The notes below the pieces were generated by a model. The model was not told the origin of the DNA and made no database searches. It was given only the letters and a program-made list of their open reading frames with translations. Shown in pieces: positions 45,481 to 56,815 of a stretch of DNA of 64,000 nucleotides; position 1 is the stretch's first letter; each line of letters starts with the position of its first letter. Source of the stretch: Allosphingosinicella indica (lineage in GTDB: Bacteria > Pseudomonadota > Alphaproteobacteria > Sphingomonadales > Sphingomonadaceae); NCBI RefSeq assembly GCF_900177405.1, contig NZ_LT840185.1, positions 1,045,501-1,109,500 on the forward strand, written 5' to 3'. Made by a program: the position numbers and the translations under genes.

Positions 45481-45528
45481 TGGAGCGGGCGAAGGGATTC
45501 GAACCCTCGACCCCAACCTTGGCAAGGT
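45481..45528. repeat. Left attachment site: truncated tRNA-Gly copy
   Basis: This 48-bp segment equals 56741-56788 base for base and stops inside the anticodon stem, after which the sequences diverge (GGTCGG here, GGTTGT in the intact gene). It is a 3' tRNA fragment on the minus strand, not a functional gene. It marks the att core used by the integrase. Confidence 0.92.
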
Positions 45529-45645
45529 CGGCATCAGCCGTTTTCCGGCGGCTTTCTCGTTACTGTCATTCCCGGATTTCCGCGATTTCTCAAACTCACG
45601 CGTTTCTGCCGTTTTTGAGCGTTTCCGGGGTTTATAGACGTTCCA

Positions 45646-45720
45646 AGTGGGGATAGAGCGGGGTGGACTTTTGGTCCATTTCCGGTTATAATAATGATAT
45701 ACCCCACTGGATTCCCCACT
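45646..45720. repeat. AGTGGGG boxes, candidate integrase arm sites (left end)
   Basis: Three copies of the AGTGGGG word lie between attL and the integrase gene: AGTGGGGAT at 45646-45654 on the plus strand, and ACCCCACT (45701-45708) and ATTCCCCACT (45711-45720) in inverse orientation. Two further copies lie at the right end (56675-56693). Matching words at both ends of the element suit arm-type binding sites of a lambda-like integrase. Confidence 0.6.
45664..45692 (+). promoter_or_regulatory. Integrase promoter with overlapping palindrome
   Basis: TGGACT (45664-45669), a 17-bp spacer and TATAAT (45687-45692) form a good sigma-70 promoter pointing at the integrase gene. The dyad TGGAC-N5-GTCCA (45664-45678) covers the -35 box and may be an operator for a repressor or the integrase itself. 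Confidence 0.6.
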
Positions 45721-45773
45721 GCAAGTTCGGAGGTGCCAGCCGGGGAAAGCAACCCCTCAACGGAGCGATAAGA

Positions 45774-46976
45774 ATGACAAATGCGCGACGCCCGGTCGGC
45801 CGCCCCGGCCGCTATGCCAAATACGAGAAACTGGAAGCCTCACTCCCCGCCCGAATGACGAAGCGCCCGGTCTATTGCGACGGGATCGGCCTGTTCAAAG
45901 GCAGCAAGGCGAGCACGGTCTGGGTCAAGATCAGGATGCCCCACGGCGGCGTCTATAAGGGCCGCACGGTGCCTCTATCAGGCTCCATCGAGCACAAGGC
46001 AGGCAACCGGGCCTCTTGGACGTGGCAGCAGCTAGAAGCCGAGCGGGACCGCCTACAGGGCCTAGCCGATCGCGGCGAGCCACTGGAAGCCGTCCAGGCG
46101 GAATCCTTCGCCAGCTTCGCAACGGACTGGCTCGAACGGAAAAAATCGACGCTCAAGGGCTACGGCGTCACCAAGGGCCATATCGCCACGGCGCTGATCC
46201 CGACGTTCGGCAAGAAGGCGCTGGACGCGATCACCGTTGGCGATGTCAATCGCTGGATCGGCAAGCAGCGCGCTAACCTCGCGCCCGCCACGGTGCAAAG
46301 ACAGCTAAGCACGTTCAATGCGATCATGAATGATGCCGTTCGCAACGGCCTGATCGAGCGAAACCCGGCCACACGCGCCGACAAGATCAGAGGCGTCGAG
46401 CCGAGACAGCGTTTTGTCACTGAGGCGGAATGGCAGACGATCCTTGCGACCTGCGAACGCATCGAGCGAGAGCAGGAAGAGAAGCGGGAGCAAACGCCGC
46501 AGCGGATCAGGGGCTGGCTCCGGCACTATGTCGCATGGGCCTACAATTCGGGGATGCGGCGAGCGGAGATACTCGCGCTGACATGGGCCAATGTGCGGGC
46601 CGTCGATGCCGAGCACGTCGTGGTCGAGGTGCTCAATTCCAAGAACGGCAAATCCCGCTTCGTCAGCTGCACCGCGGAAATGCGGTCGATCCTAGAGGCG
46701 CTCGAGAAGCTGGATCGCCCGGGGGGAGACAATCGGCTTTTCCCTGTGTCGATCACGACGCTGAAACGCGCCTTGACTGCCCTGTGGAAGGCGACAGGGT
46801 TGAAAGACGTGCGCCTTCACGATCTCCGCCGCAGCCATGCGACAATCCTCATCAACAAGGGGATAGACGTTCGCACCGTGGCAGGGCGCCTTGGACATAC
46901 CGGCACTGCCATGCTGGCCAAGCACTACGCCGTGGATCGCGGCGACAAGGAAGCGGCGGCCGCGTTCGCCGCATAG
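45774..46976 (+). CDS. Tyrosine-type site-specific integrase
   Basis: About 400 aa. An N-terminal region with AP2-like DNA-binding features is followed by a SAM-like core-binding domain (about 105-190) and the catalytic domain. Catalytic residues are visible: Arg in NSGMRRAEIL, HDLRR, GHTG and the Tyr in KHYAV. It cuts and joins the tRNA-Gly att core. The start ATG 45774 follows CGGAG; the frame runs further upstream through the promoter and is not used. Position at the left end, pointing inward, is usual for tRNA-targeting islands. Confidence 0.93.
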   Translation: MTNARRPVGRPGRYAKYEKLEASLPARMTKRPVYCDGIGLFKGSKASTVWVKIRMPHGGVYKGRTVPLSGSIEHKAGNRASWTWQQLEAERDRLQGLADRGEPLEAVQAESFASFATDWLERKKSTLKGYGVTKGHIATALIPTFGKKALDAITVGDVNRWIGKQRANLAPATVQRQLSTFNAIMNDAVRNGLIERNPATRADKIRGVEPRQRFVTEAEWQTILATCERIEREQEEKREQTPQRIRGWLRHYVAWAYNSGMRRAEILALTWANVRAVDAEHVVVEVLNSKNGKSRFVSCTAEMRSILEALEKLDRPGGDNRLFPVSITTLKRALTALWKATGLKDVRLHDLRRSHATILINKGIDVRTVAGRLGHTGTAMLAKHYAVDRGDKEAAAAFAA

Positions 46977-47074
46977 TCTCTGGCGGGGAAGCGAGCGCCT
47001 AGTCCGATGTCTAGCAAAGTCTAGCGGACTGGCCTCGCTACCGGCCCCCAACGGGCCGATATATCCGTTTTTTC

Positions 47075-47103
47075 TTGACAAATCCGCCGTTTTCGGATAT
47101 AAT
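47075..47103 (+). promoter_or_regulatory. Perfect consensus sigma-70 promoter with dyad operator
   Basis: TTGACA (47075-47080), exactly 17 bp, then TATAAT (47098-47103). Both hexamers are perfect, which is rare in GC-rich alphaproteobacteria. The spacer holds ATCCG...CGGAT (47082-47086 / 47094-47098), and another ATATCCG lies at 47061-47067. The promoter drives the small HTH gene and the polymerase-like gene and is probably tightly repressed. Confidence 0.75.
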
Positions 47104-47223
47104 GGAGGTATGGATAGAGGGGATTTCCCTTCTTCCATAAACCCCAAAATCAGAGCCGATCCACCGTTCGAAGCCCGCGCTTCGCAACGGTGTTTTCGCT
47201 CGTCCCAATAAGGAGAAGAGCTC

Positions 47224-47424
47224 ATGTCAATTGAGCCGGAATTTTTCACCGACAAGGATGTTGCCCGGAAGCTGAATCTGTCGCCGTCATGGGTGCGGGG
47301 TCAGCGGCACAAAAGAGCTAAGGGGCTGCCCCACATCCTCGACGTGGATGCCAGATACATCGGCACTTGCCCCCGCTATGTGAAGGCTGAAATCGACGCC
47401 TTCGTTGCCGCCATCGCGGCCTGA
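47224..47424 (+). CDS. AlpA/excisionase-like small HTH protein
   Basis: A 66-aa protein with a MerR-like winged HTH (FFTDKDVARKLNLSPSWVRGQR). Such proteins act as excisionases or as activators (AlpA) of the integrase in integrative elements. AAGGAGAAG gives it a very strong ribosome site. It lies 120 bp after the perfect promoter and 15 bp before the polymerase-like gene, so both are one transcript. It may itself bind the CGGAT dyads of that promoter. Confidence 0.75.
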   Translation: MSIEPEFFTDKDVARKLNLSPSWVRGQRHKRAKGLPHILDVDARYIGTCPRYVKAEIDAFVAAIAA

Positions 47425-47439
47425 ACGGAGCAGCAACCA

Positions 47440-48861
47440 ATGTATCATGACAGGATGCTGGCGGCGCGTGGCGTCGCCGGATGGGCGGATACGCGCCTCG
47501 TTGAGGCCATTCCCGTTGATCGGGCACCGATGGAGCCGAAGCAGGACGCGAACGCCTCCAGCGGTTTCCTAGCGCCTTTGGGAGAGTGGTTTGACGAAGA
47601 TTATGACTTCACCGGGCCGGAAGGTGATGCTTTTGCCGACGCCTTGCTGGCCCAGGTCGAAGCGATCGAGGTCCGAAAACGGGCACGGCGGCAAGCCGAT
47701 GTCGACAATCATCAGACCTTCCTCCGTAAGCTGGCTGCCAACGGCTTCCGGGCCTTCCGTAGCTACCATCCGCCTTTGGTCGCGGTGCAATTGGCGCCGC
47801 ACGCCTATCGCGGACGCGCTGGCTGGCTGAACGGCGTGGCGATGAAGCGCGAGCTGGAACTGTTAAGGGAAGCGGGACTCGTCGAAATTAACATTGGCGT
47901 GTGGGGCGAAGCCTCCACGACCTATTCCGTGACGCCGGATTTCATGATCGCCGCGATCAGGGCTCGACTGACGGGCCGCAACATCACGCACCGTCTGGAG
48001 CCTCACCGGCTCGTTCGACTCTATCGAACCAACAGCGACGATGGCGACTTGATCGCCTTCGAGCCTGACGATCAGACGCGGCGATGGACAGAGCAAATCG
48101 ACGCCTACAATCGCTTTGTCGCGGCACAGGACGTCGCAATGGACCTGTCTAGTCGGGATAAGGCCAGGTTGCTCGCCCAGATGAACGCCGGGCGGCGGGA
48201 AGGCATTCCGCGACTCAAGCAACCGGACCTGACGAACAAGAGCCTGTTCCGGCAGTTCAACGAAGGATCCTTTGAAGCCGGCGGGCGGCTCTACGGGGCG
48301 TGGTGGATCAACTGCCCGAAGGAATTTCGTCCGATGATCAGGATCAACGGCAAGCCGACGGTGGAACTGGATTTCTCCGGTTGTGCAGTCCGCATGTTGT
48401 ATCACGAGAAGGGAATGGCGTTCGAAGGCGATCCCTATTTTCTGGAAGCCCTCGACGCCTGCGAACGGGAGCATGACCTTCGCAAGAGTCATTTCCGGGA
48501 AGGCGTGAAGCGGTTGACCCAAGCCCTGATCAACGGATGCGAGGGCGGCAGTCCCGAACGGATCAGGCTAACGAAAGAGGAAGCCGTAAGGCCCTATTTC
48601 AAGCAATCCCATGTTTTGGAGATGATCAGGGCCAAGCATGAACCGATCGCCCAATCGTTCCAGACCGGCGCTTGGAGATGGCTGCAAAGGGCGGACTCCG
48701 ACATTGCCTTGTCGGTTATCCACAATCTGATGGAGAAGGGGATCGTCGCTTTACCGATCCATGATTCCTTCATCGTCGCTGAAGGCGATAAGGAGGCGCT
48801 GAGACTGCAAATGACGGTCAGCTATCTTGATCAATTTGACCATGAACCAGTGATCAACTGA
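47440..48861 (+). CDS. Polymerase-like protein with family-A/T7-type palm motifs (unrecognised family)
   Basis: A 473-aa protein that I cannot place in a named family. Residues about 115-170 look like a winged helix (RELELLREAGLVEI). The C-terminal 180 residues carry, in order, VELDFSGCAVRML (Asp311; motif A), REGVKRLTQALING (Arg353, Lys357, Asn365-Gly366; motif B/O-helix) and PIHDSFIV (Asp442; motif C). The R-x3-K-x7-x-G spacing equals that of Pol I and T7 RNA polymerase. The motif A position that is Glu710 in Pol I is Ala316, and motif C is HDS, as in T7 RNA polymerase, not HDE. A compact template-dependent polymerase or primase-polymerase for element replication is inferred. GGAG precedes the ATG. 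Confidence 0.65.
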   Translation: MYHDRMLAARGVAGWADTRLVEAIPVDRAPMEPKQDANASSGFLAPLGEWFDEDYDFTGPEGDAFADALLAQVEAIEVRKRARRQADVDNHQTFLRKLAANGFRAFRSYHPPLVAVQLAPHAYRGRAGWLNGVAMKRELELLREAGLVEINIGVWGEASTTYSVTPDFMIAAIRARLTGRNITHRLEPHRLVRLYRTNSDDGDLIAFEPDDQTRRWTEQIDAYNRFVAAQDVAMDLSSRDKARLLAQMNAGRREGIPRLKQPDLTNKSLFRQFNEGSFEAGGRLYGAWWINCPKEFRPMIRINGKPTVELDFSGCAVRMLYHEKGMAFEGDPYFLEALDACEREHDLRKSHFREGVKRLTQALINGCEGGSPERIRLTKEEAVRPYFKQSHVLEMIRAKHEPIAQSFQTGAWRWLQRADSDIALSVIHNLMEKGIVALPIHDSFIVAEGDKEALRLQMTVSYLDQFDHEPVIN

Positions 48862-48951
48862 ATGGAATAGTGACGGAGTGAAGGGGAATTCGGGGGAGTC
48901 CCTTCATTCCAGATAGTCCGTAAGCACGCAGCTAAGCCACCATCCGTAGCT

Positions 48952-49404
48952 TTAATTCATCACACCCGGCTTCCAGCTGATAATCGGCACCATATCTGCT
49001 TCGGTTCCTGGCCGGGATCGCAGCTCAGGATCGGTTTCGCGCTCGTAGGCCCCACGGGTCCAGATCATCACCCAGAGCTTCGGCATGAACAGGGACACAG
49101 CCTTGGCGACGGGCTTCAGATTCCTTCTCGTCCAGAAAATGAGGGCCTCTTCATCGTCCCCGATGCCTCTTTCCCTGAAGACCGCCCACAAGTGCGCAAA
49201 ATCCAGCTTATGCGTGATGCAACCGACCGTGCCCACGGGCAGTTTCCGACATTCCAACGACACGATCGCATAGGGTCGACACGTGCCGACCTCAACGAAT
49301 TTGCCGTCCGCGATCCGTGCTCCGAATTCTCTGAACTTCCGCACGCGGCAAAGCTCGCCGTCGATTGCAGCCCAGTCGCGATCCGATCGGAGAACCTTAT
49401 CCAC
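48952..49404 (-). CDS. Hypothetical protein (150 aa), coupled to membrane gene
   Basis: No family recognised. The protein is mixed alpha/beta, soluble, with segments GELCRVRKFREFGARI, YAIVSLECRKLPVG and LWVMIWTRGAYERET. I place the start at GTG 49404, which overlaps the stop of the upstream membrane gene by 8 bp (GTGGATAA) and has GGAAAG before it. A longer frame to 49476 would overlap that gene fully. It is convergent with the polymerase-like gene. The coupling suggests the two proteins act together. Confidence 0.6.
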   Translation of the reverse strand: MDKVLRSDRDWAAIDGELCRVRKFREFGARIADGKFVEVGTCRPYAIVSLECRKLPVGTVGCITHKLDFAHLWAVFRERGIGDDEEALIFWTRRNLKPVAKAVSLFMPKLWVMIWTRGAYERETDPELRSRPGTEADMVPIISWKPGVMN

Positions 49405-49705
49405 GGCTTTCCAAGGCTTCGATGGTCCGATTGCTCCATCGAAACAGCAGGAATGACACAGCTGTAGTAGCCCCAAGGCTCAAGAGGAAGGTTGCACCTG
49501 GCACCTCGCTCCATGACCGGCGGGCTACTACCACCGCCACAATCCCAATAATCAGGATGGCGTTGGCTACAAGGAAGAGACCCGACGCCAATTGGATCGC
49601 TCCAAGGGCGAAACTCCCGAGCATATTGACCGCGCCCTCGGCCCTCTGCCGTTCAAGATCGGGAGCTGCGGGCCGAGCCGTGTCAGCAGGGGATTCCTCG
49701 ATCAT
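49397..49705 (-). CDS. Two-helix membrane protein (102 aa)
   Basis: An acidic N-terminus (about 1-28) is followed by two membrane helices (about 36-60 and 72-90) and a short tail. No family recognised. GGAAGGA precedes the ATG at good spacing. It is the first gene of a two-gene unit with the 150-aa protein, divergent from the XRE regulator. A membrane effector or anchor within an element-encoded module is possible but unproven. Confidence 0.65.
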   Translation of the reverse strand: MIEESPADTARPAAPDLERQRAEGAVNMLGSFALGAIQLASGLFLVANAILIIGIVAVVVARRSWSEVPGATFLLSLGATTAVSFLLFRWSNRTIEALESRG

Positions 49706-49791
49706 CGGCGTGTCCTTCCACCAAGCCCAACGTGGAATGAGGTATAATAGCCCGTGGACTGAAAAGCACCATCCATCGCCTAAGCTGGCGG

Positions 49792-50022
49792 ATGGACGAA
49801 GGGGCGATCCTTCAGGAACTGGGCACTAGGATCAGGGCGCAGCGCAAGCGTATCGGCCTGACGCAGGAGGCCCTGGCCTTGGTGGCGAACGTGGACCGTT
49901 CCTATTACGGCGCTGTCGAGCGCGGAGAGCGCAACGTCACCTTCACTGTCCTTTGCCGCCTGTGCATCGCCCTTCGATGCGACGTAGCCGCACTGACCGA
50001 AGCACTTCCGCCCGGCGAGTGA
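49792..50022 (+). CDS. XRE-family transcriptional regulator
   Basis: A 76-aa Cro/C1-type protein made of a single HTH domain (TRIRAQRKRIGLTQEALALVANVDRSYYGAVERGER). It probably represses element promoters. A TATAAT at 49743-49748 lies 44 bp upstream. The gene is divergent from the two small coupled genes and sits between the replication-like half and the ATPase/nuclease operon, a usual place for a module repressor. The ribosome site is weak. Confidence 0.85.
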   Translation: MDEGAILQELGTRIRAQRKRIGLTQEALALVANVDRSYYGAVERGERNVTFTVLCRLCIALRCDVAALTEALPPGE

Positions 50023-50037
50023 CGCGCGAGCCATGTC

Positions 50038-50069
50038 CTTTGCGTGGAGCAGGGATAGGCGACGCAAAG
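50038..50069. repeat. 8-bp inverted repeat after the XRE gene
   Basis: CTTTGCGT (50038-50045) and ACGCAAAG (50062-50069) are separated by 16 bp. It may be the 3' hairpin of the XRE transcript or an operator. The rest of the 240-bp spacer up to 50262 shows no gene that I can support. Confidence 0.4.
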
Positions 50070-50262
50070 ACCAGGCTCGGCATCGCGCCGGGACGTGATG
50101 CTTGAGCTGGTGGACAGGAACGTCGCTTAGGCGGCGTCTACGCGCATCGAGTTACGCAGGGCCAGCCCGCCGCTCGACCGCAGCTGACCCAAATAAGGTG
50201 GCGGTCGAATCCGCTCGTCCCTCTAACGCAACCAAGCCCCTGATTAGGATGTGTTACCGCGA

Positions 50263-51408
50263 TCAATGTCCCATGATTTTCTCGGCGATCTCCCGAGTGA
50301 TCACGTCGCCTGACTCTACGCCGTGACGCCGGATAGCTCGTTCAAAGACTCTCTTACACTGAATAAACATGCTCCTTGGTGTGAGAGAGGTCTGATCCTC
50401 CACGATTGCCTCCACGGCTTCGGTGGAGAAGGGATAGAAGGTGTCGACATGCGAGGAGCCCGCCGTGCGATAGTAATTCAGTTGTGATCGCAAAAACTCT
50501 ACGGCCATGGCATCCGAGAGCATCGGGACCTCGATATAATCCCGCGTGAGGCGCTTCAGTAGATGGTTCGGCATCACCGCCTCGATCAAAGCGGTTGCGG
50601 CCGTGAAGCTCATCATCAAGCAGAACCGGTAAGGTAAGCCGTTTATCAGTTCGCGCAGACCGGAAAAGACTAAGTCGCTTTCCGAGGTTTTTGCCTCCAG
50701 CAGCATCTCACATTCGTCTAAAAAGAAGTAGATTGACTCTTTAATCCTCTTACCGTTCGGAAACTCGGCGGTGAGTACCCGAAAGAAATCACCCAACACC
50801 TTGGCCGCCATGAAATCTGAGTCAATTTTCCCTTCGTACTCAGGCCCATCGCACCTATCGGCGCCGGTGAGAAACTCAAATACCTTTGACCCTGGCCTCG
50901 TCCCTCGCGCCAAAAGGCGCGCCATGGGGCGGTCGCTCTCTTTAAGTTGATTATAGGCCTCTTCGTAGAAGGTGCCCTTGTCCTTGATACCGCCCATTCC
51001 CTTTTCATGAGCGAGCTGCTCGACGATCTCGTCTATCGTGCGAGCTATGGCAGAGCAGTAGGCAGAAAGCGTGTCGCGTCCAATGCTTTGGACAATATAC
51101 TTTGCTAGATTTTCAAAATTCAGCTTGTTTGCGACCCGCGGACGTTCAAGGTAAACCGCCAGTGAATCAAAATCGTTGGGACTCTCACAGATTAGGGTTC
51201 TCAGATAGCGCAAGGCATGGCTTTTGCCTGCCCCCAATTCGCCATTTATTACGATGAATTCACTGACTCCTATATCTCTGGCGCGTACGCCTTTGACAAT
51301 ATCTACAAGCTCATCTCGCAGTTCATGGTCGCCCGCCCAGTTGTGCACGCTGCTTTCTGGAGCGATCGGAAATGGATCTTGCCTGAGATCATAATCCTCA
51401 AATTTCAT
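50263..51408 (-). CDS. AAA/P-loop ATPase, last gene of five-gene operon
   Basis: A 381-aa ATPase. Walker A is GELGAGKS (Lys62) and Walker B is YFFLDECE (Asp231-Glu232). The N-terminal DPFPIAPESSVHNWAGDHEL and the overall plan recall ExeA/TniB/Orc1-like AAA proteins that load partners on DNA. A helical C-terminal lid or winged domain is likely (about 290-381). The ATG overlaps the PLD gene stop by 4 bp (ATGA) and has GGGAG. No known defence family is assigned; it may recruit or regulate the PLD nuclease. Confidence 0.75.
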   Translation of the reverse strand: MKFEDYDLRQDPFPIAPESSVHNWAGDHELRDELVDIVKGVRARDIGVSEFIVINGELGAGKSHALRYLRTLICESPNDFDSLAVYLERPRVANKLNFENLAKYIVQSIGRDTLSAYCSAIARTIDEIVEQLAHEKGMGGIKDKGTFYEEAYNQLKESDRPMARLLARGTRPGSKVFEFLTGADRCDGPEYEGKIDSDFMAAKVLGDFFRVLTAEFPNGKRIKESIYFFLDECEMLLEAKTSESDLVFSGLRELINGLPYRFCLMMSFTAATALIEAVMPNHLLKRLTRDYIEVPMLSDAMAVEFLRSQLNYYRTAGSSHVDTFYPFSTEAVEAIVEDQTSLTPRSMFIQCKRVFERAIRRHGVESGDVITREIAEKIMGH

Positions 51409-51953
51409 ATCGTTTCTCCCGCGCCCGCTGGCTTATGCCGATGAACCCACGCTGGGAAGGTGAGAGCACCGTTCCCCGTCATGCGAGCCAACTCCCTCTC
51501 GCAGGGTGAAGCCGGACCGACGCCTTCTAGTTCGGCCATAACCTCGTGGTTCCTCTCCAAGCCACCTATCGTGAAGTTGGCTGAGCCGACAAAGCTGCGG
51601 AAGTGACCCTTTGAGTATTCGATGTGGTACATTTTCGCATGCAGGTACGGATTGGCCCTTATGAAGAAGCTGATCCCGTCCGCATCAAGCCTCCGAGCTG
51701 TGTCGAGACTCATAGCGGCGCTGTCGACACCGGGAGGGCGCGTTATGATGACAATCTCACCGATACCTCGCCGCTGCAAAAATCCGCAAAACTTGATTAT
51801 GTTGTCAAAAGGCTTCGGCAGAAGGTGAAAGTATGGGGAGCAGATTGTGATCCGCTCTATACTCTCGCTTAAGGACGATACAAACCTTCTATAAAATTCA
51901 CGAGTTGCATACACTTCTTGAAATGTAACTCTGTTCTTACGAGGCCCGATCAT
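51405..51953 (-). CDS. PLD-superfamily nuclease-like protein
   Basis: A 182-aa protein with one phospholipase-D domain. His105 and Lys107 (LHAKMYHIE) form the HxK motif, the usual Asp four residues later is Glu112, and GSANFT (123-128) plus Glu137 complete the site. One domain per chain means it should dimerise, as Nuc and BfiI do, and many such proteins cut DNA. GGGGGAG precedes the ATG. It lies 23 bp after the unknown gene and overlaps the AAA gene, and it is the probable nuclease of this operon. Confidence 0.8.
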   Translation of the reverse strand: MIGPRKNRVTFQEVYATREFYRRFVSSLSESIERITICSPYFHLLPKPFDNIIKFCGFLQRRGIGEIVIITRPPGVDSAAMSLDTARRLDADGISFFIRANPYLHAKMYHIEYSKGHFRSFVGSANFTIGGLERNHEVMAELEGVGPASPCERELARMTGNGALTFPAWVHRHKPAGAGETI

Positions 51954-51976
51954 TCGTGCTCCCCCAATAGCCTCAT

Positions 51977-53092
51977 CTACCTGACCCTGTAAAAGCCCAC
52001 CTTCCCCTTAAGAGCAGAAAGGCGGTCGAATTGGTCCCGGTAACTCCTAAAAACCTCGTCTACCGTCAATAGCTCGTCGTAATGGACCTTATCTCGATAT
52101 GATCTGAACTTAATATATTCCAGCGGTAGCTCTAGCGATGCCTGCGATGCGTGGATTAATCGGGCAAAGGGATACGCTGCCACCATGATTTTAGCCACGT
52201 CAGGAGCCAGAGCCGTGATCTGGTCCGACGTAGCTTCATCCGTGGCTACTGAGAAGTTGAACTCGTCCTCAAACGGGCCACCGATGACATAATCTGGCCT
52301 AACGTGAAGCGCCTCTTGGATGCCGCGTGGGGGGCCCAACCAGAAATAGTTGTTTCCCGGGAGGAGCGCCCCGAGGGCGTCAGAACCGAATGCTGTTAAA
52401 CGGCCAGCATCATCAACCATCCCGAAGGATTGAAGCCACCCCCTTCGAGGGGTCGCGTGATGACGGGCGGTATTCCTCGTAAACACTTCCACCTTATGCG
52501 CTTGGCCTCGGGCCTTTGCAGGCGAAATCCACGATAACTTGGAACTGATCCGATCTTGTAAGATCGCTTCCGGGAATGCCCCTTGAAGCCAGCGTTCACG
52601 CTCATTCCGTAACTGCTGAAAGAATGTGACATAGTAGTCGAACAGATTAATATCGCCGCTGTCCCGGTAGTGCATTAACAAGGCGACAAGAGAGTCTGCA
52701 TCTGCCAGGAAAGCGATGCGAGCTGCAAAGAAACTGGAGAACTCAGGGTTATCTATCCGACGGGATGACAATAACGATCGGCCCAATTCTGTCGGTGAAA
52801 ATCTCTGGAGGCGCGCCTCGCGTCCCGACGTCTGCTGAACGATACGCATTGCGCGGGCGAAAGAAATAATTTCGGCGAGATAATCATCCGTTAGGTCTGA
52901 TTGATTGCCCCCCTCGCTTTGCGACGAGCGCAGGAATGCGATAATCTCCTCTTTGACCGCAGAGGGCCTGTCATGGAAAACCTCCAGGACCGAAAGAATG
53001 CGATCAAGGTCATAAGCCGCTGTAGTGTACCCGATATGGCGCGATAACGCGCGAGCCAACGCATCTTCATTCTCGGTTCGATTGCCGATCAC
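51977..53092 (-). CDS. Hypothetical protein (371 aa), third gene of operon
   Basis: No family recognised. The N-terminal 110 residues look helical with a winged-helix flavour (LARALSRHIGYTTAAYDLDR, LQRFSPTELGRSLLSS). The middle has a basic DNA-contact-like stretch (NTARHHATPRRGW), and the C-terminus is mixed. It starts with GTG 53092 overlapping the HerA-type gene stop (GTGA), so it is coupled to that ATPase. It may be a specificity or sensor subunit, but this is a guess from position. Confidence 0.55.
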   Translation of the reverse strand: MIGNRTENEDALARALSRHIGYTTAAYDLDRILSVLEVFHDRPSAVKEEIIAFLRSSQSEGGNQSDLTDDYLAEIISFARAMRIVQQTSGREARLQRFSPTELGRSLLSSRRIDNPEFSSFFAARIAFLADADSLVALLMHYRDSGDINLFDYYVTFFQQLRNERERWLQGAFPEAILQDRISSKLSWISPAKARGQAHKVEVFTRNTARHHATPRRGWLQSFGMVDDAGRLTAFGSDALGALLPGNNYFWLGPPRGIQEALHVRPDYVIGGPFEDEFNFSVATDEATSDQITALAPDVAKIMVAAYPFARLIHASQASLELPLEYIKFRSYRDKVHYDELLTVDEVFRSYRDQFDRLSALKGKVGFYRVR

Positions 53093-54435
53093 TTAGGCGT
53101 TGCCCCGCCATGCGCGGTGGTGCGGGGGCGAACTCGTGCGAGAAATATCCGACTGCTTGCGCCATCGGCTATGACACACTCACCTGGTCCGAGGCTGCGG
53201 ATGACATCTGCGAGCGAGCAGCCGGATTGGCTGTCCACGTCGTAATCTACTGAGGCGCGCGTGGGCATGCGGGCGATAGCAGCCGACAAATCTGCATCAA
53301 ACCCGAGCATGTGAGTAAGGGTGAGATCGACCTGGCTCATCAGTTTGGAGTTTACTGCCGAGGGCTGCTGAGTTGCAAAAATCAGAGATAGGCCGGCATC
53401 GCGCCCGCGCTTCACATAATCGATCAACGGACCTGTCGCGGCAGTCGCACCGTCCGACGGCACGAGTACGTGCGCTTCGTCCAGTACAATCCAAAGTCGT
53501 CGGGTTAGAGCAATGCCGTCATCAGAGAGCCGATTCCCCGTGCGTGCGGCAACCTTGCGGGCCTGCTGTACGCGGCCCATGCGATCTGCCGCGAGCCTCG
53601 AAATAACCCCAACCACAAGGCCGCGAACGGACTCAGCGAGGTTCCGCATGAGTACGACCGTCAGCCTACCTTTCTGAAGAAGCTCATCGATGCTCAGTCC
53701 AGTGGAGCCGATTATTTCCGTATGCGCGAGGCTTTCGAGGCGCCAGCGCAGCCCGTCCACAGTCCCTTGCTGATAATTTGAAAGCGGGCCAGCCCCGTCA
53801 CAAAGGTCTGCCAGCCCTTCTGGGGTGCTCCCCGGACTGGTATCCAAAAGAGTGATCAGTGCCTGTCCCATTGGGGAGAATCGTTCTAGCTCCAAGATGG
53901 CGAGCCAGTCCGCATGGGTCAGCTGAGAAGCGGAGAGTGAGAATGAAACGGCTTCCGGGACCTGGGTGTCGCTACATTGCGGGATCCAAACCTGAACTCC
54001 TTCAATGTGCTCAGGCTGTAAACCCCACGCCGTAAGCTCTTGCACCTGTGCCTGGTCGGTATCAAGCGAAGGGTCTGGCTTGTATGCAAGCGTCCAAAAC
54101 TGGTCCTGCACGTCGAAAACGATGCCTGCGTCCGTCACATCCGCCCGTGAGGGACCAAATATCCCTTCGAGAATTACTCCTAAGTCGTAGCTCTTCCCAC
54201 TACCTCGGCTCCCGAAGATGCCAATCACGTGGGGAAATTGGATATCCAGCTGCACGTTATAATCAAGGAGATTGCCGGTGCGGCTTTGCTCTAAAACCTT
54301 GCCGACAAAAGCGAGGTTAATTTCCGAGGCTTCGCGGCGGCCTAGAAGAACGGATTTGCTTTTCTGATCGGTAAAGAAGTTACCTGGGGCTCTCGTTTGA
54401 TACCTAGTGCCAGTTATAAGCTTCTTATATTTCAC
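53089..54435 (-). CDS. HerA/FtsK-type ATPase of the element
   Basis: A 448-aa ATPase of the HerA/DUF87 kind. A short N-terminal barrel-like region precedes Walker A GSRGSGKS (Lys81), Walker B LWIVLDEAH (Asp319-Glu320), a VKRGRDAG arginine segment and the ATQQP sensor motif. Such proteins form DNA-pumping hexamers and in defence operons pair with nucleases, SIR2 or other effectors. The GTG start (54435) overlaps the GNAT-ABC gene by 11 bp. It shares only the core motifs with the chromosomal HerA-like protein at 5.7 kb. Confidence 0.82.
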   Translation of the reverse strand: MKYKKLITGTRYQTRAPGNFFTDQKSKSVLLGRREASEINLAFVGKVLEQSRTGNLLDYNVQLDIQFPHVIGIFGSRGSGKSYDLGVILEGIFGPSRADVTDAGIVFDVQDQFWTLAYKPDPSLDTDQAQVQELTAWGLQPEHIEGVQVWIPQCSDTQVPEAVSFSLSASQLTHADWLAILELERFSPMGQALITLLDTSPGSTPEGLADLCDGAGPLSNYQQGTVDGLRWRLESLAHTEIIGSTGLSIDELLQKGRLTVVLMRNLAESVRGLVVGVISRLAADRMGRVQQARKVAARTGNRLSDDGIALTRRLWIVLDEAHVLVPSDGATAATGPLIDYVKRGRDAGLSLIFATQQPSAVNSKLMSQVDLTLTHMLGFDADLSAAIARMPTRASVDYDVDSQSGCSLADVIRSLGPGECVIADGASSRIFLARVRPRTTAHGGATPK

Positions 54436-56272
54436 CGAGAACGCCTTCCCGCATAGTAGGTCTGTCGCCTCGACGAAGCATCACAACGCAGCCAGGTGCT
54501 ATAAAGTTTGCCAGTCGATCGTATGCAGCCGTGGCCAGCACGCACGCGACGTTATGCTCGAGCACAAGCGACCGTAGGCCCTTGCAAACAGCCCGCGCGC
54601 TGAACCTGTCCAGAGACTCGCAGAAGTTGTCAATCAAGATAATCTGCGGTTTCACGAGCACGGCTAGGGCCACCTGCAACCGATAACGCTGGCCAGAGCT
54701 AAGCGTCCAAATAGGCCGAACCAGCAGCTGGGGTTCCGCAAGGCCACATCTCGCCGTGACCGCCAGGAACGACGGTAGCTGCCCATCCCTCAGGTAGTCC
54801 AATGGAGTTAGGTTTGGATCGAGCGTCGGAAGGGACGTGACCCGCGCGACGCCGCTAGCTGACCCGGAAATTGTTAGAAATCGCTCGCACCGTGGCGCCC
54901 CCGTGAGAAGTTGCTCAACAGCACCGAGGAGGAGGGATTTCCCAGAGCCGCTTGCTCCGCAGACCAGCGTCATCTCTCCCGCTCTCAACGAAAGCGATAG
55001 CCCTTCGACAACGGTGGAACTGACAGACGCTCCGACAAAGCCGAAAGCGTCTTGCAGCGTCCTCGCCTCAGAGGTTTGCAAAATTCCGGAGGACACCGTG
55101 ATATTGATGTCATCAAGACGCCAAATTTTTGGCTCAGACGGCAGGCGGGAAGAATTTGGGCCTCGCGTACCGTGCAATGTCGATGCCCGTGCCGAAACAT
55201 AGGCCTCGGCGGCTTGGGTGAGACCAGTCACATAACAAGGCTTAGGCCTCCGGTTCAGATTATGGAGAGCCTCCCACGACTCCTGGTCCAAGAGAGCCGG
55301 ATCATACTGGAGCCGGCCAACGGTTTCCTCCAATGAGAAACCCGTATCGCTGATAAATTCCAGGAGCTTTGCTGCGTACGAGCGTTGTAGGCTCATGATC
55401 CCACCTCCGCCTTGTGGCATTCCCCTGAGTCCCTTGGCAGACATAGCTTTCCGGACGAGGTAGTTCATGTCCTTAGAAACGCGGTGCTCGTTGCCTTCCG
55501 TGTCTCCCATGTAGGTAAATTGCCGTCCGACGAACGGGTAAAACCGGAGCATGTCGGCGGTAATTTCTAGGAAGCGAGGCCGATATCCGCCGTAGTTCCA
55601 TCTTTCTCCGGCGTACTTTCGCGCTGCTTCAGCAAAAAGCGATGCCAGCCCGAGGCCCCTAAGTTCGGGGTGAATGACAAATCGCGATATTCGGCAAATG
55701 AGATTAGAATACTTCCTGGACGTTAGTCGGTCCCAGTCTCTCCAGTATATTCCTGATGGCTCGGAGTAAGGGGCAGCAAAGAACCTTTTCCGGGCTGAAT
55801 TTGCTATCATACTCGATGAAAGCTCAATAAAGCCGACGACTCGGGGGAGATCAGGCGCTTCAACTGTTCCGATTATCGGCACGGTTCTCCCAGCCCCGCC
55901 GCCCCCGCGATAGTGGAACTGCCGCAGTTGCTGAAAGAGCTCCTGCTCCTCAGCCGTCTCGATCTCCTTGAAGGTGACGAGGAGGTCGAGAGCCCCGAGT
56001 TGCAGCCGGGAAGTTTCCGTCCATGGCGCTGTGTGGTCGATCCAAAGCCTATCGCGGCTGACGTAGGCTGTCAGCGAGTCGTCGCACAGGGAGACGACAT
56101 CACCCTTCCCAATAGGCAAATACCGTCGGCTCGAAAAAGTTCGCCCATCTGCGAGTTTGAAGGTTGACGCGTGGGTCGAAATCGAACGGCTAAGAACGAC
56201 CGTGGAGGGGCGGCCCGCCTCTGTGCGCCGGGAAACCGGTTCCTGCTGCGATACGCCGTCGTGGTAGCCCAT
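54425..56272 (-). CDS. GNAT acetyltransferase-ABC ATPase fusion (COG2401-like)
   Basis: A 615-aa fusion. Residues about 95-280 form a GNAT domain with the acetyl-CoA loop VIHPELRGLGLA (199-210). Residues about 385-610 form an ABC ATPase with Walker A GASGSGKS (Lys445), signature LSSGQ (524-528) and Walker B ILIDN (Asp548). The residue after Asp548 is Asn549 instead of the catalytic Glu, so hydrolysis may be slow or lost. COG2401 is defined as exactly this fusion; its role is unknown. It heads the five-gene operon. ATG 56272 has no clear ribosome site but is the only start before the conserved part. Confidence 0.75.
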   Translation of the reverse strand: MGYHDGVSQQEPVSRRTEAGRPSTVVLSRSISTHASTFKLADGRTFSSRRYLPIGKGDVVSLCDDSLTAYVSRDRLWIDHTAPWTETSRLQLGALDLLVTFKEIETAEEQELFQQLRQFHYRGGGGAGRTVPIIGTVEAPDLPRVVGFIELSSSMIANSARKRFFAAPYSEPSGIYWRDWDRLTSRKYSNLICRISRFVIHPELRGLGLASLFAEAARKYAGERWNYGGYRPRFLEITADMLRFYPFVGRQFTYMGDTEGNEHRVSKDMNYLVRKAMSAKGLRGMPQGGGGIMSLQRSYAAKLLEFISDTGFSLEETVGRLQYDPALLDQESWEALHNLNRRPKPCYVTGLTQAAEAYVSARASTLHGTRGPNSSRLPSEPKIWRLDDINITVSSGILQTSEARTLQDAFGFVGASVSSTVVEGLSLSLRAGEMTLVCGASGSGKSLLLGAVEQLLTGAPRCERFLTISGSASGVARVTSLPTLDPNLTPLDYLRDGQLPSFLAVTARCGLAEPQLLVRPIWTLSSGQRYRLQVALAVLVKPQIILIDNFCESLDRFSARAVCKGLRSLVLEHNVACVLATAAYDRLANFIAPGCVVMLRRGDRPTMREGVLGEI

Positions 56273-56740
56273 TCGGGGGTTCTAACACCGGCACTTCGGT
56301 CTGACCAGGCCCGAAAGGTTCCGTACCAGCGGCCCCCGGCACCGAGGCGGAAGTATGCGAGAGGGCGCTCTCTCTTGTTTCATCGTCTTTTTGGCTCCGG
56401 AGAACGGTGGCGGCATGGTTCATCTGAACATCCATCGCTGACAGTCAATCTGTTGAAGGACGCTAATTTTCTAATTTTTTATCTCGGACGAGAGGCCGGT
56501 TTACAAACGCGGCAGGAGGATGCGATTCCACCCCTCCCCCCCACCGGGGGGGGCCCTACTGCGAAGGAATCTTTGCCGGTCCCGTGCGGGGCAAGGGCGC
56601 TCGGTCCCGCAGTGCTTGGCACTGCCTTTGCCGAGTCACAGGGTGGCAAACGAGGGGGATTTATGGCGTTGGCGAGTGGGGATACAGTGGGGCGATTCTC
56701 GCTATCGCCGTCACAGTCGCTTGTAAGTCATTGAGAAGAC
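56273..56740. other. Noncoding right end of the element
   Basis: This 468-bp stretch has no gene that I can support. It should hold the promoter of the five-gene operon: TTGACT with 17-bp spacing to AGATGA, reading leftward around 56411-56442, is a weak candidate. A C7-ACC-G8 hairpin lies at 56536-56553, and two AGTGGGG boxes at 56675-56693 match those at the left end, so the final part is probably the attR arm region. Confidence 0.5.
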
Positions 56741-56788
56741 TGGAGCGGGCGAAGGGATTCGAACCCTCGACCCCAACCTTGGCAAGGT
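56741..56788. repeat. Right attachment site within tRNA-Gly
   Basis: The second copy of the 48-bp direct repeat, forming the 3' part of the intact tRNA-Gly gene from the anticodon stem to CCA. Integration therefore rebuilt a complete tRNA gene at this end. Confidence 0.92.
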
Positions 56789-56815
56789 TGTGCTCTACCC
56801 CTGAGCTACGCCCGC
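56741..56815 (-). tRNA. tRNA-Gly(GCC)
   Basis: A 75-nt tRNA read on the minus strand. The acceptor stem GCGGGCG pairs with CGCCCGC, followed by discriminator T and encoded CCA. The D-arm holds AGCTCAGGGGTAGAGC, the anticodon arm CCTTGCCAAGG has anticodon GCC, and the T-loop is GGTTCGAATCC. It is the integration target of the element to its left. Upstream (56825-56865) lies a nested GGCCGGA/TCCGGCC dyad of unknown role. Confidence 0.97.

Follow-up and report, generated by a model that had tools for sequence, protein, structure and literature searches.

DivPolA2 was described by Yutin et al. in 2024 in 110 barbaviruses and in further phages, and it is named in Rheinheimera phages (PMC11348598). 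In the passages of this paper that characterise it, the protein has an intact palm, neither a homologous thumb nor an exonuclease, and an N-terminal domain without known relatives, and it is proposed to act as a repair DNA polymerase or an RNA polymerase. The same paper reports swapping of DNA polymerases in phages, for which immune escape or replicon incompatibility is suggested (PMC11348598). Among mobile elements, the self-synthesising ones are given as B-family based (PMC7385651). In the PICMI satellites, the genes follow the order int, alpA, prim, and deletion of prim lowers the copy number (PMC10803314). Within the open-access literature, the term divPolA2 was found only in Yutin et al. 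2024 and its preprint.

The window (i.e. the whole stretch of DNA analysed here, 64,000 nucleotides from Allosphingosinicella indica) contains an element of ~11.3 kb, at positions 45482-56788, flanked by a 47-bp exact repeat of part of a tRNA-Gly(GCC). An earlier note, made from this DNA alone, had placed a polymerase on a mobile element; its ends are now mapped at these repeats. The element is organised as follows:

45482-45528, no strand: attL, 47-bp exact copy of part of tRNA-Gly(GCC) (repeat search)
45663-46976, + strand: tyrosine integrase, 437 aa (PF00589, E = 3.4e-21)
47224-47424, + strand: AlpA/excisionase-like small helix-turn-helix protein, 66 aa (HTH_17, E = 0.0019, below the curated cut-off)
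47440-48861, + strand: divPolA2-type polymerase, 473 aa (ORF translation, motifs, profile and model comparisons)
49792-50022, + strand: small Cro/C1-type HTH protein, restriction control-protein-like (HTH_3, 5.1e-13; PADLOC control protein, 6.1e-14)
50263-56272, - strand: five-gene cargo operon (Pfam; PADLOC mad8 5.5e-18, ZacB 3.8e-10, mad3 9.6e-9)
56742-56788, no strand: attR, 47-bp repeat inside tRNA-Gly(GCC) (repeat search; tRNA at 56741-56815, - strand)

The cargo operon encodes an ABC-ATPase protein, a HerA-like ATPase, a 371-aa protein, a PLD-like nuclease and an AAA ATPase. It weakly resembles mad3/mad8 of MADS as well as other PLD/HerA defence parts, and, judging by these matches, may be an undescribed defence system. 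All nine congeneric loci examined have an identical 75-bp tRNA (9/9) and also the conserved downstream gene (9/9); the outermost cargo gene of the element is absent from their 1.5-kb flanks (n = 9). The upstream gene of the window was not found in the nine congeneric loci examined; as this gene is absent there and the integrase lies beyond the reach of the flanks, no exact empty site is established. One of the congeneric loci (L366) has a second partial copy of the tRNA.

We propose that the polymerase is the replication protein of the element, origin-binding and possibly self-priming, a reading to which sequence, models and analogy together give about an even chance. The winged helix would bind the origin, or would bring the enzyme to the excised circle; the palm would make a primer and/or extend a primer into DNA, and the excised element would thereby be copied before re-integration or packaging. 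In this role, which we judge the most likely one, the enzyme would be the A-family equivalent of the piPolB of pipolins or of the PICMI primase. This role is suggested by the position of the gene, comparable to that of prim in PICMIs (PMC10803314) and of piPolB in pipolins (PMC7385651). It is also suggested by the content of the element: among ten other proteins of the element (three without a Pfam match), Pfam recognised no primase, relaxase or capsid gene, nor any other replication protein. Likewise, no other candidate was recognised in the element of a relative, L101, which by ORF pick consists of int, pol, a type ISP restriction enzyme and one unassigned 209-aa protein. Two observations count against this role: no origin-like iterons were found at 46960-47445 or 48850-49800, and the phage members of divPolA2 are reported to co-occur with a replicative PolB, sometimes as two or three paralogues (PMC11348598).

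The regions of the polymerase used below are the following; counts are rows of a wide family alignment of 193 unique ORFs from 206 of 207 loci, each denominator being the rows with letters at that position:

47692-47934, + strand: winged-helix-like region, residues about 85-165 (AlphaFold model, Foldseek)
48280-48288, + strand: GGR motif, residues 281-283 (G282 184/186, R283 183/185; hhalign partner, PolA TGR)
48364-48387, + strand: motif A, residues 309-316 with E309, D311 and gate position 316 (D311 185/186; hhalign partner, PolA DYSQIELR)
48430-48438, + strand: D331-P-Y333 motif (D331 178/186, Y333 182/186)
48496-48537, + strand: motif B, residues 353-366 with R353, K357 and N365 (R353 182/187, K357 185/187, N365 157/187)
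48760-48768, + strand: motif C, HDS, residues 441-443 (H441 183/187, D442 186/188, S443 167/188; hhalign partners, HDE in PolA and HDS in T7-like RNA polymerases)

All the residues on which the earlier note had based its palm (DFSG with D311, R353, K357, G366, and HDS with D442) are where it had placed them, and its spacings are exact, with 42 residues from D311 to R353 and 85 from K357 to D442. The two aspartates are conserved among homologues (185/186 family rows for D311, 186/188 for D442), as that note had expected of a true palm, and 181 of the 184 rows with letters at the positions of D311, K357 and D442 carry all three residues. In a smaller alignment of 22 sequences of the order, the window's own included, R271, G281, G282, R283, R297, E309, D311, Y333, K357, L415, H441 and D442 are invariant (22/22). 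The palm motifs are near-invariant across the family and are not due to chance. Motif B, read as R-x3-K-x8-G, stands in part: R353 and K357 are conserved, while G366 is found in only 16 of 187 rows. G281-G282-R283 had been overlooked, and D331-x-Y333, matched by eye only, resembles the DIH/DIY of PolA and T7 RNA polymerase. The chromosomal PolA of the window is a separate protein, as had been claimed (D694, R739/K743, VHDE at 866-869; spacings of 45 and 125 residues): its N-terminus is different, and its motif B to motif C stretch counts 125 residues against 85 in the element's polymerase.

With the single protein as query, no Pfam family was found at E<=10, so that neither PF00476 nor an exonuclease was matched, and searches of NCBIfam and of PDB sequences gave no match; nor did the 22-row family profile match any PDB sequence. 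Six weak Pfam matches among the 22 members (best 0.035, one member each), none to a polymerase, were taken as chance. An AlphaFold2 model of the full protein, built with the 22-row alignment, has a pLDDT of 88.2 and a pTM of 0.83, residues 1-45 being of low confidence. In this model, D311 lies near the end of the strand 305-312 and D442 in the turn that joins strands 438-440 and 443-447, the placement expected of a palm. In a Foldseek search of the PDB, the seven matches at E<=0.001 are without exception A-family DNA polymerases, and the first 30 rows are all A-family DNA polymerases or mitochondrial/T7 single-subunit RNA polymerases, with low TM-scores (0.23-0.34 of the query). The fold comparison suggested by the earlier note thus gave these two groups as the best resemblance of the predicted model. 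Rows 31-50 also include DNA polymerase alpha (B-family) and herpes helicase-primase subunits, which we count against the replication role.

Profile-profile comparison points the same way. In hhalign against the window PolA, GGR, D311, R353, K357, the Q416 helix and HDS pair with TGR, D694, R739, K743, the Q helix and HDE, and this register is kept with 25 rows (P = 0.0027, score 34.5) as well as with 55 rows (P = 0.041, score 26.0); the scores are weak in both cases. A diverse 17-row set of T7-like RNA polymerases aligned in the motif C region only (score 48, P = 5.9e-5), and a narrow set of 75 T7-like rows aligned in the wrong region, with the motifs unpaired (P = 0.02). Among 22 reversed or shuffled controls, all gave P = 0.065 or worse, with a best score of 24.3, near the 26.0 of the 55-row PolA run; four further controls of the 25-row run (the integrase and three reversed) gave P = 0.13 or worse. 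PolA and RNA polymerase, which are known relatives, gave P = 0.24, so hhalign is here at its limit and the evidence lies in the motif register rather than in the P-value. A link with family B, considered because the family motif A (D-x-x-x-L-H-P) resembles the PolB motif DxxSLYP, was dropped: the T4 PolB profile, a narrow one of 15 close rows, gave no match, and we claim no family B kinship. By its motifs and predicted fold, the protein is an A-family/single-subunit-RNA-polymerase-type palm with minimal fingers and no recognised exonuclease, i.e. a small, strongly diverged relative of both DNA polymerase I and T7 RNA polymerase. The complete, compact palm of the earlier note is thus borne out by the conserved motifs, the Foldseek matches and the hhalign register. 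This palm identity, together with the near-invariant catalytic residues, counts in favour of a replication role.

The main rival to replication, and a serious one, is a dedicated single-subunit RNA polymerase, whose winged helix would read an element promoter and whose palm would transcribe element or cargo genes; we rate it as unlikely. The HDS of motif C is shared with T7 RNA polymerase, as the earlier note had stressed; this triplet is typical of the family (S in 167/188 rows), and as a sign of RNA synthesis it is suggestive only. Position 316 (motif A +5) corresponds to the ribonucleotide-gate position of Pol I. Its Glu is found in 1 of 187 rows, which suits an RNA polymerase, but the usual residue is His (140), followed by Gln (15), Phe (9) and Ala (7), and the Gly of T7 RNA polymerase is found in only two rows. 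Few relatives thus share the Ala316 of the window, and the family norm is neither the Pol I nor the T7 residue. The use of ribonucleotides, which the earlier note had read from Ala316, gains no support from a position at which most relatives have His. Similarly, motif B +8 is Asn in 157/187 rows and Tyr in 2/187, where both T7 RNA polymerase (Tyr639) and the window PolA have Tyr. The best profile match is indeed the diverse T7-like set, local at motif C (score 48, P = 5.9e-5), whereas the narrow set of 75 rows left the motifs unaligned. Two of the 22 members matched a PHROG 'RNA polymerase', with a best E of 0.015 and among several weak PHROG matches, and an RNA polymerase was raised for divPolA2 by Yutin et al. 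(PMC11348598); on the other hand, a transcription enzyme need not adjoin an integrase.

The N-terminal domain was also modelled alone (residues 46-262, 21 rows; pLDDT 90.5). Against the PDB, Foldseek gave no match at E<=0.001 for this model (best E 0.022), and 46 of the 50 rows listed, classified by their names, are winged-helix regulators (Fur, PerR, MarR, ArsR, CodY and others). The model therefore makes a winged helix at residues about 85-165 probable. A DNA-binding-like N-terminus favours the reading of the polymerase as a replication protein, and the weak scores count against it.

The earlier note had called the protein unrecognised, which does not hold, since the family is already published as the divPolA2 of phages (PMC11348598). 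The protein matches phrog_4756, whose function is unassigned there (E = 1.6e-30), as do all 22 members (22/22). With tblastn, 71 phage records were found using the window protein as query, and 290 using an Aeromonas phage homologue, 115 of them from Rheinheimera phages. The BFVD matches include a Barba31A protein, and a Barba19A protein passes the family profile and sits in the family tree. On the Rheinheimera phage, Barba31A and Barba19A matches, we file the protein under divPolA2. Its intact palm motifs, its one N-terminal domain and the lack of a Pfam exonuclease are divPolA2 traits, and the model also lacks a homologous thumb, as is stated for the phage proteins (PMC11348598).

Members of the family are found in both bacteria and phages. 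At E<=1e-3, 22 of 296 genomes of the order hold a member; at E<=1e-6, the class has members in 28 of 385 genomes and the phylum in 24 of 398, the window genome being counted in each. Among viral contigs, the window protein alone found no relative, and the family profile found 49 loci. In a midpoint-rooted FastTree tree of 179 rows (67 of 176 inner branches starred, long branches flagged), the window falls in a 106-row fork holding 101 of the 132 bacterial rows, apart from a 23-row fork with all six named-phage rows. Two Vibrio phage ICP1 members are annotated as hypothetical (L207:7179-8846 and L206:7803-9107), gp100 in the reference and another in isolate 1992_Ind_M4, the latter on a distant branch of the tree. 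Some loci have two family members, in tandem in L137 (8241-9578 and 9827-11161), and also in L135 and L023.

Then, we investigated the genes next to the polymerase in other bacteria. A 13-row profile, centred on the order to which the window belongs, gave 322 relatives in GTDB contigs, of which the best 80 (79 loci) were kept; neighbour counts refer to 79 fetched loci and the window (n = 80), with ORFs chosen by length, no gene-calling model being used. A tyrosine-integrase profile, seeded with the window integrase and iterated at E 1e-3, matched 65 of the 79 fetched loci and the window, by the profile's own scores. The polymerase is usually beside an integrase in bacteria: the nearest one is upstream on the same strand in 29 loci, downstream and opposed in 29, and otherwise placed in 8. 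Among the 49 fetched loci that extend for at least 3.5 kb to either side, 36 have an integrase edge within 3 kb, against four PF00589 matches in all, the window integrase among them, in the window's own genome (2.81 Mb), which supports a replication role. Polymerase and integrase distances are also correlated (Mantel r = 0.70 over 46 pairs, a value reached in 0 of 2000 permutations), which supports it too through co-inheritance, but r is 0.26 for distant pairs, so that the deep co-inheritance signal is modest. The latter value is counted against replication, as is the fact that the 79 loci are the best of 322 relatives.

An AlpA-like gene immediately precedes the polymerase in six loci of a close clade (the window and L077-L081), with a 4-nt overlap at the polymerase start in L078, L079 and L081, and in five of the six the integrase lies upstream of both on the same strand; we count both arrangements in favour of replication. 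On the other side are the 14 of 80 loci without a match to the iterated integrase profile, several of which are on short contigs, the restriction of AlpA-like homologues to 6 of 80 loci (none outside the close clade at the threshold used), and L080, where the near integrase is downstream. Apart from integrases, 148 nearest neighbours from 37 of the 49 loci were classified, in a tally of the best 25 of the 79 Pfam families and the best 25 of the 202 PADLOC families; resolvases (7), mad2 (6), methyltransferases and Zorya-type MotB (2) are among the commonest. The seven resolvases of these 148 neighbours (37 loci) are serine resolvases (PF00239), and from these matches some elements may use or carry serine recombinases.

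We also looked for element ends in the relatives. A tRNA scan of 12 loci found one or more tRNAs in six of them, seven in total, and a direct repeat elsewhere in the locus for five of these seven: 51 bp in L081, 42 bp for the tRNA-Arg of L134, 20 bp in L101, 18 bp in L113 and 17 bp in L126. No direct repeat was found for the tRNA of L078, whose contig ends inside int, or for the tRNA-Pro of L134. The window and five relatives are thus elements delimited around int and pol, about 9-13 kb each (8.8-12.8 kb for the relatives), with about 4 to 13 ORFs. The cargo is a type ISP restriction enzyme in L101, a type I R-M system with DUF4268 in L126, an Mrr/ResIII helicase-nuclease in L134, a type I R-M system in L113, and a DrmMII/type II-like DNA methyltransferase with PDC-M33A in L081; L077, which has no mapped ends, carries a type III R-M system. 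These tRNA-derived repeats bounding int and pol, with varied cargo, are further support for a replication role. Two sister elements lie at tRNA-Cys (L101:3420-13233 and L126:392-13235), with 69% identity between their polymerases and 67% between their integrases, and their cargo differs.

The polymerase gene itself differs strongly between otherwise similar elements. Compared with the closest relative, L077 (polymerase at L077:1048-2478), a MAG contig beginning inside the integrase, the polymerase has 47% amino acid identity, against 91% for the AlpA-like protein and 95% for the available part of the integrase; with L081, from Erythrobacter sanguineus DSM 11032, the values are 42%, 73% and 70%, respectively. 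At the DNA level, the window and L077 have 86% identity as far as 47419, at the end of the AlpA-like gene; the value is 68% for a 537-bp stretch of the polymerase gene and again 81% for a 276-bp piece further on (49742-50015). With one MAG contig as the closest comparison, these sequences look like the result of a replacement of the polymerase gene in place, or of its very fast divergence. Such divergence between relatives, like the defence-type cargo of the elements, would also suit a cargo or anti-phage enzyme travelling near the integrase, a polymerase making a protective or toxic product. We consider this improbable, as the cargo changes while int and pol stay (type ISP in L101 vs. type I in L126; 69% and 67%) and no PADLOC model matches the polymerase. 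A repair polymerase filling gaps after recombination on excised or integrating DNA is very unlikely: adjacency to the integrase would fit, and repair is proposed for phage divPolA2 (PMC11348598), but the host already has PolA and a winged-helix DNA-binding domain was judged more typical of an initiator.

Returning to the polymerase as a replication protein, a broader proposal is possible but tentative, and rather doubtful as a whole: these would be a family of elements as yet undescribed, integrated at tRNA genes, carrying defence systems and defined by a polymerase of winged-helix/A-family type that starts DNA without a separate primase, and thus an A-family counterpart of pipolins, in which the polymerase gene would be swapped in place, perhaps for replicon identity or escape from host or phage immunity. 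Judged against the open-access literature, the polymerase family is known, while the setting in defence-carrying bacterial integrative elements, the winged-helix-like N-terminus in this polymerase family and the divergence of the polymerase between otherwise similar elements are new, none of the three having been found in print there. DivPolA2 was described in 2024 without a settled job, and small bacterial elements offer a natural and genetically simple setting for testing its function. These elements are also vehicles for restriction and other defence systems in Proteobacteria. We know of no helper phage for the window element.

Compared with DNA polymerase I (PF00476) and T7 RNA polymerase (PF00940, which we take to be its family), the window protein has the same motifs A, B and C and an upstream GR motif, in the same order; if self-priming, it would be a compact enzyme between the two. 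Phage divPolA2 is like it in having an active-looking PolA-type palm without a homologous thumb or exonuclease, and both resemble DNA and RNA polymerases (PMC11348598). However, the phage genes are described as additional genes in variable neighbourhoods, whereas here the gene lies beside the integrases of small bacterial elements, and the N-terminus, without known relatives as presented in that paper, is here winged-helix-like, with weak scores (PMC11348598). The PICMI satellites are alike in their small size and their core of int, alpA and a replication gene, but this gene is a DUF3987/DUF5906 primase, in the place of which a divPolA2 polymerase is found here (PMC10803314); of this core, the window element has int and an AlpA-like protein (HTH_17 below the cut-off), with no primase recognised. 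Pipolins are likewise integrated at tRNA genes and encode a tyrosine recombinase and their own polymerase, besides a varying set of other genes; their piPolB is a B-family enzyme with reported priming, whereas the palm is here of the A-family/single-subunit-RNA-polymerase type by its motifs (PMC7385651). Were it self-priming, the self-synthesising elements would gain an A-family branch with the window polymerase.
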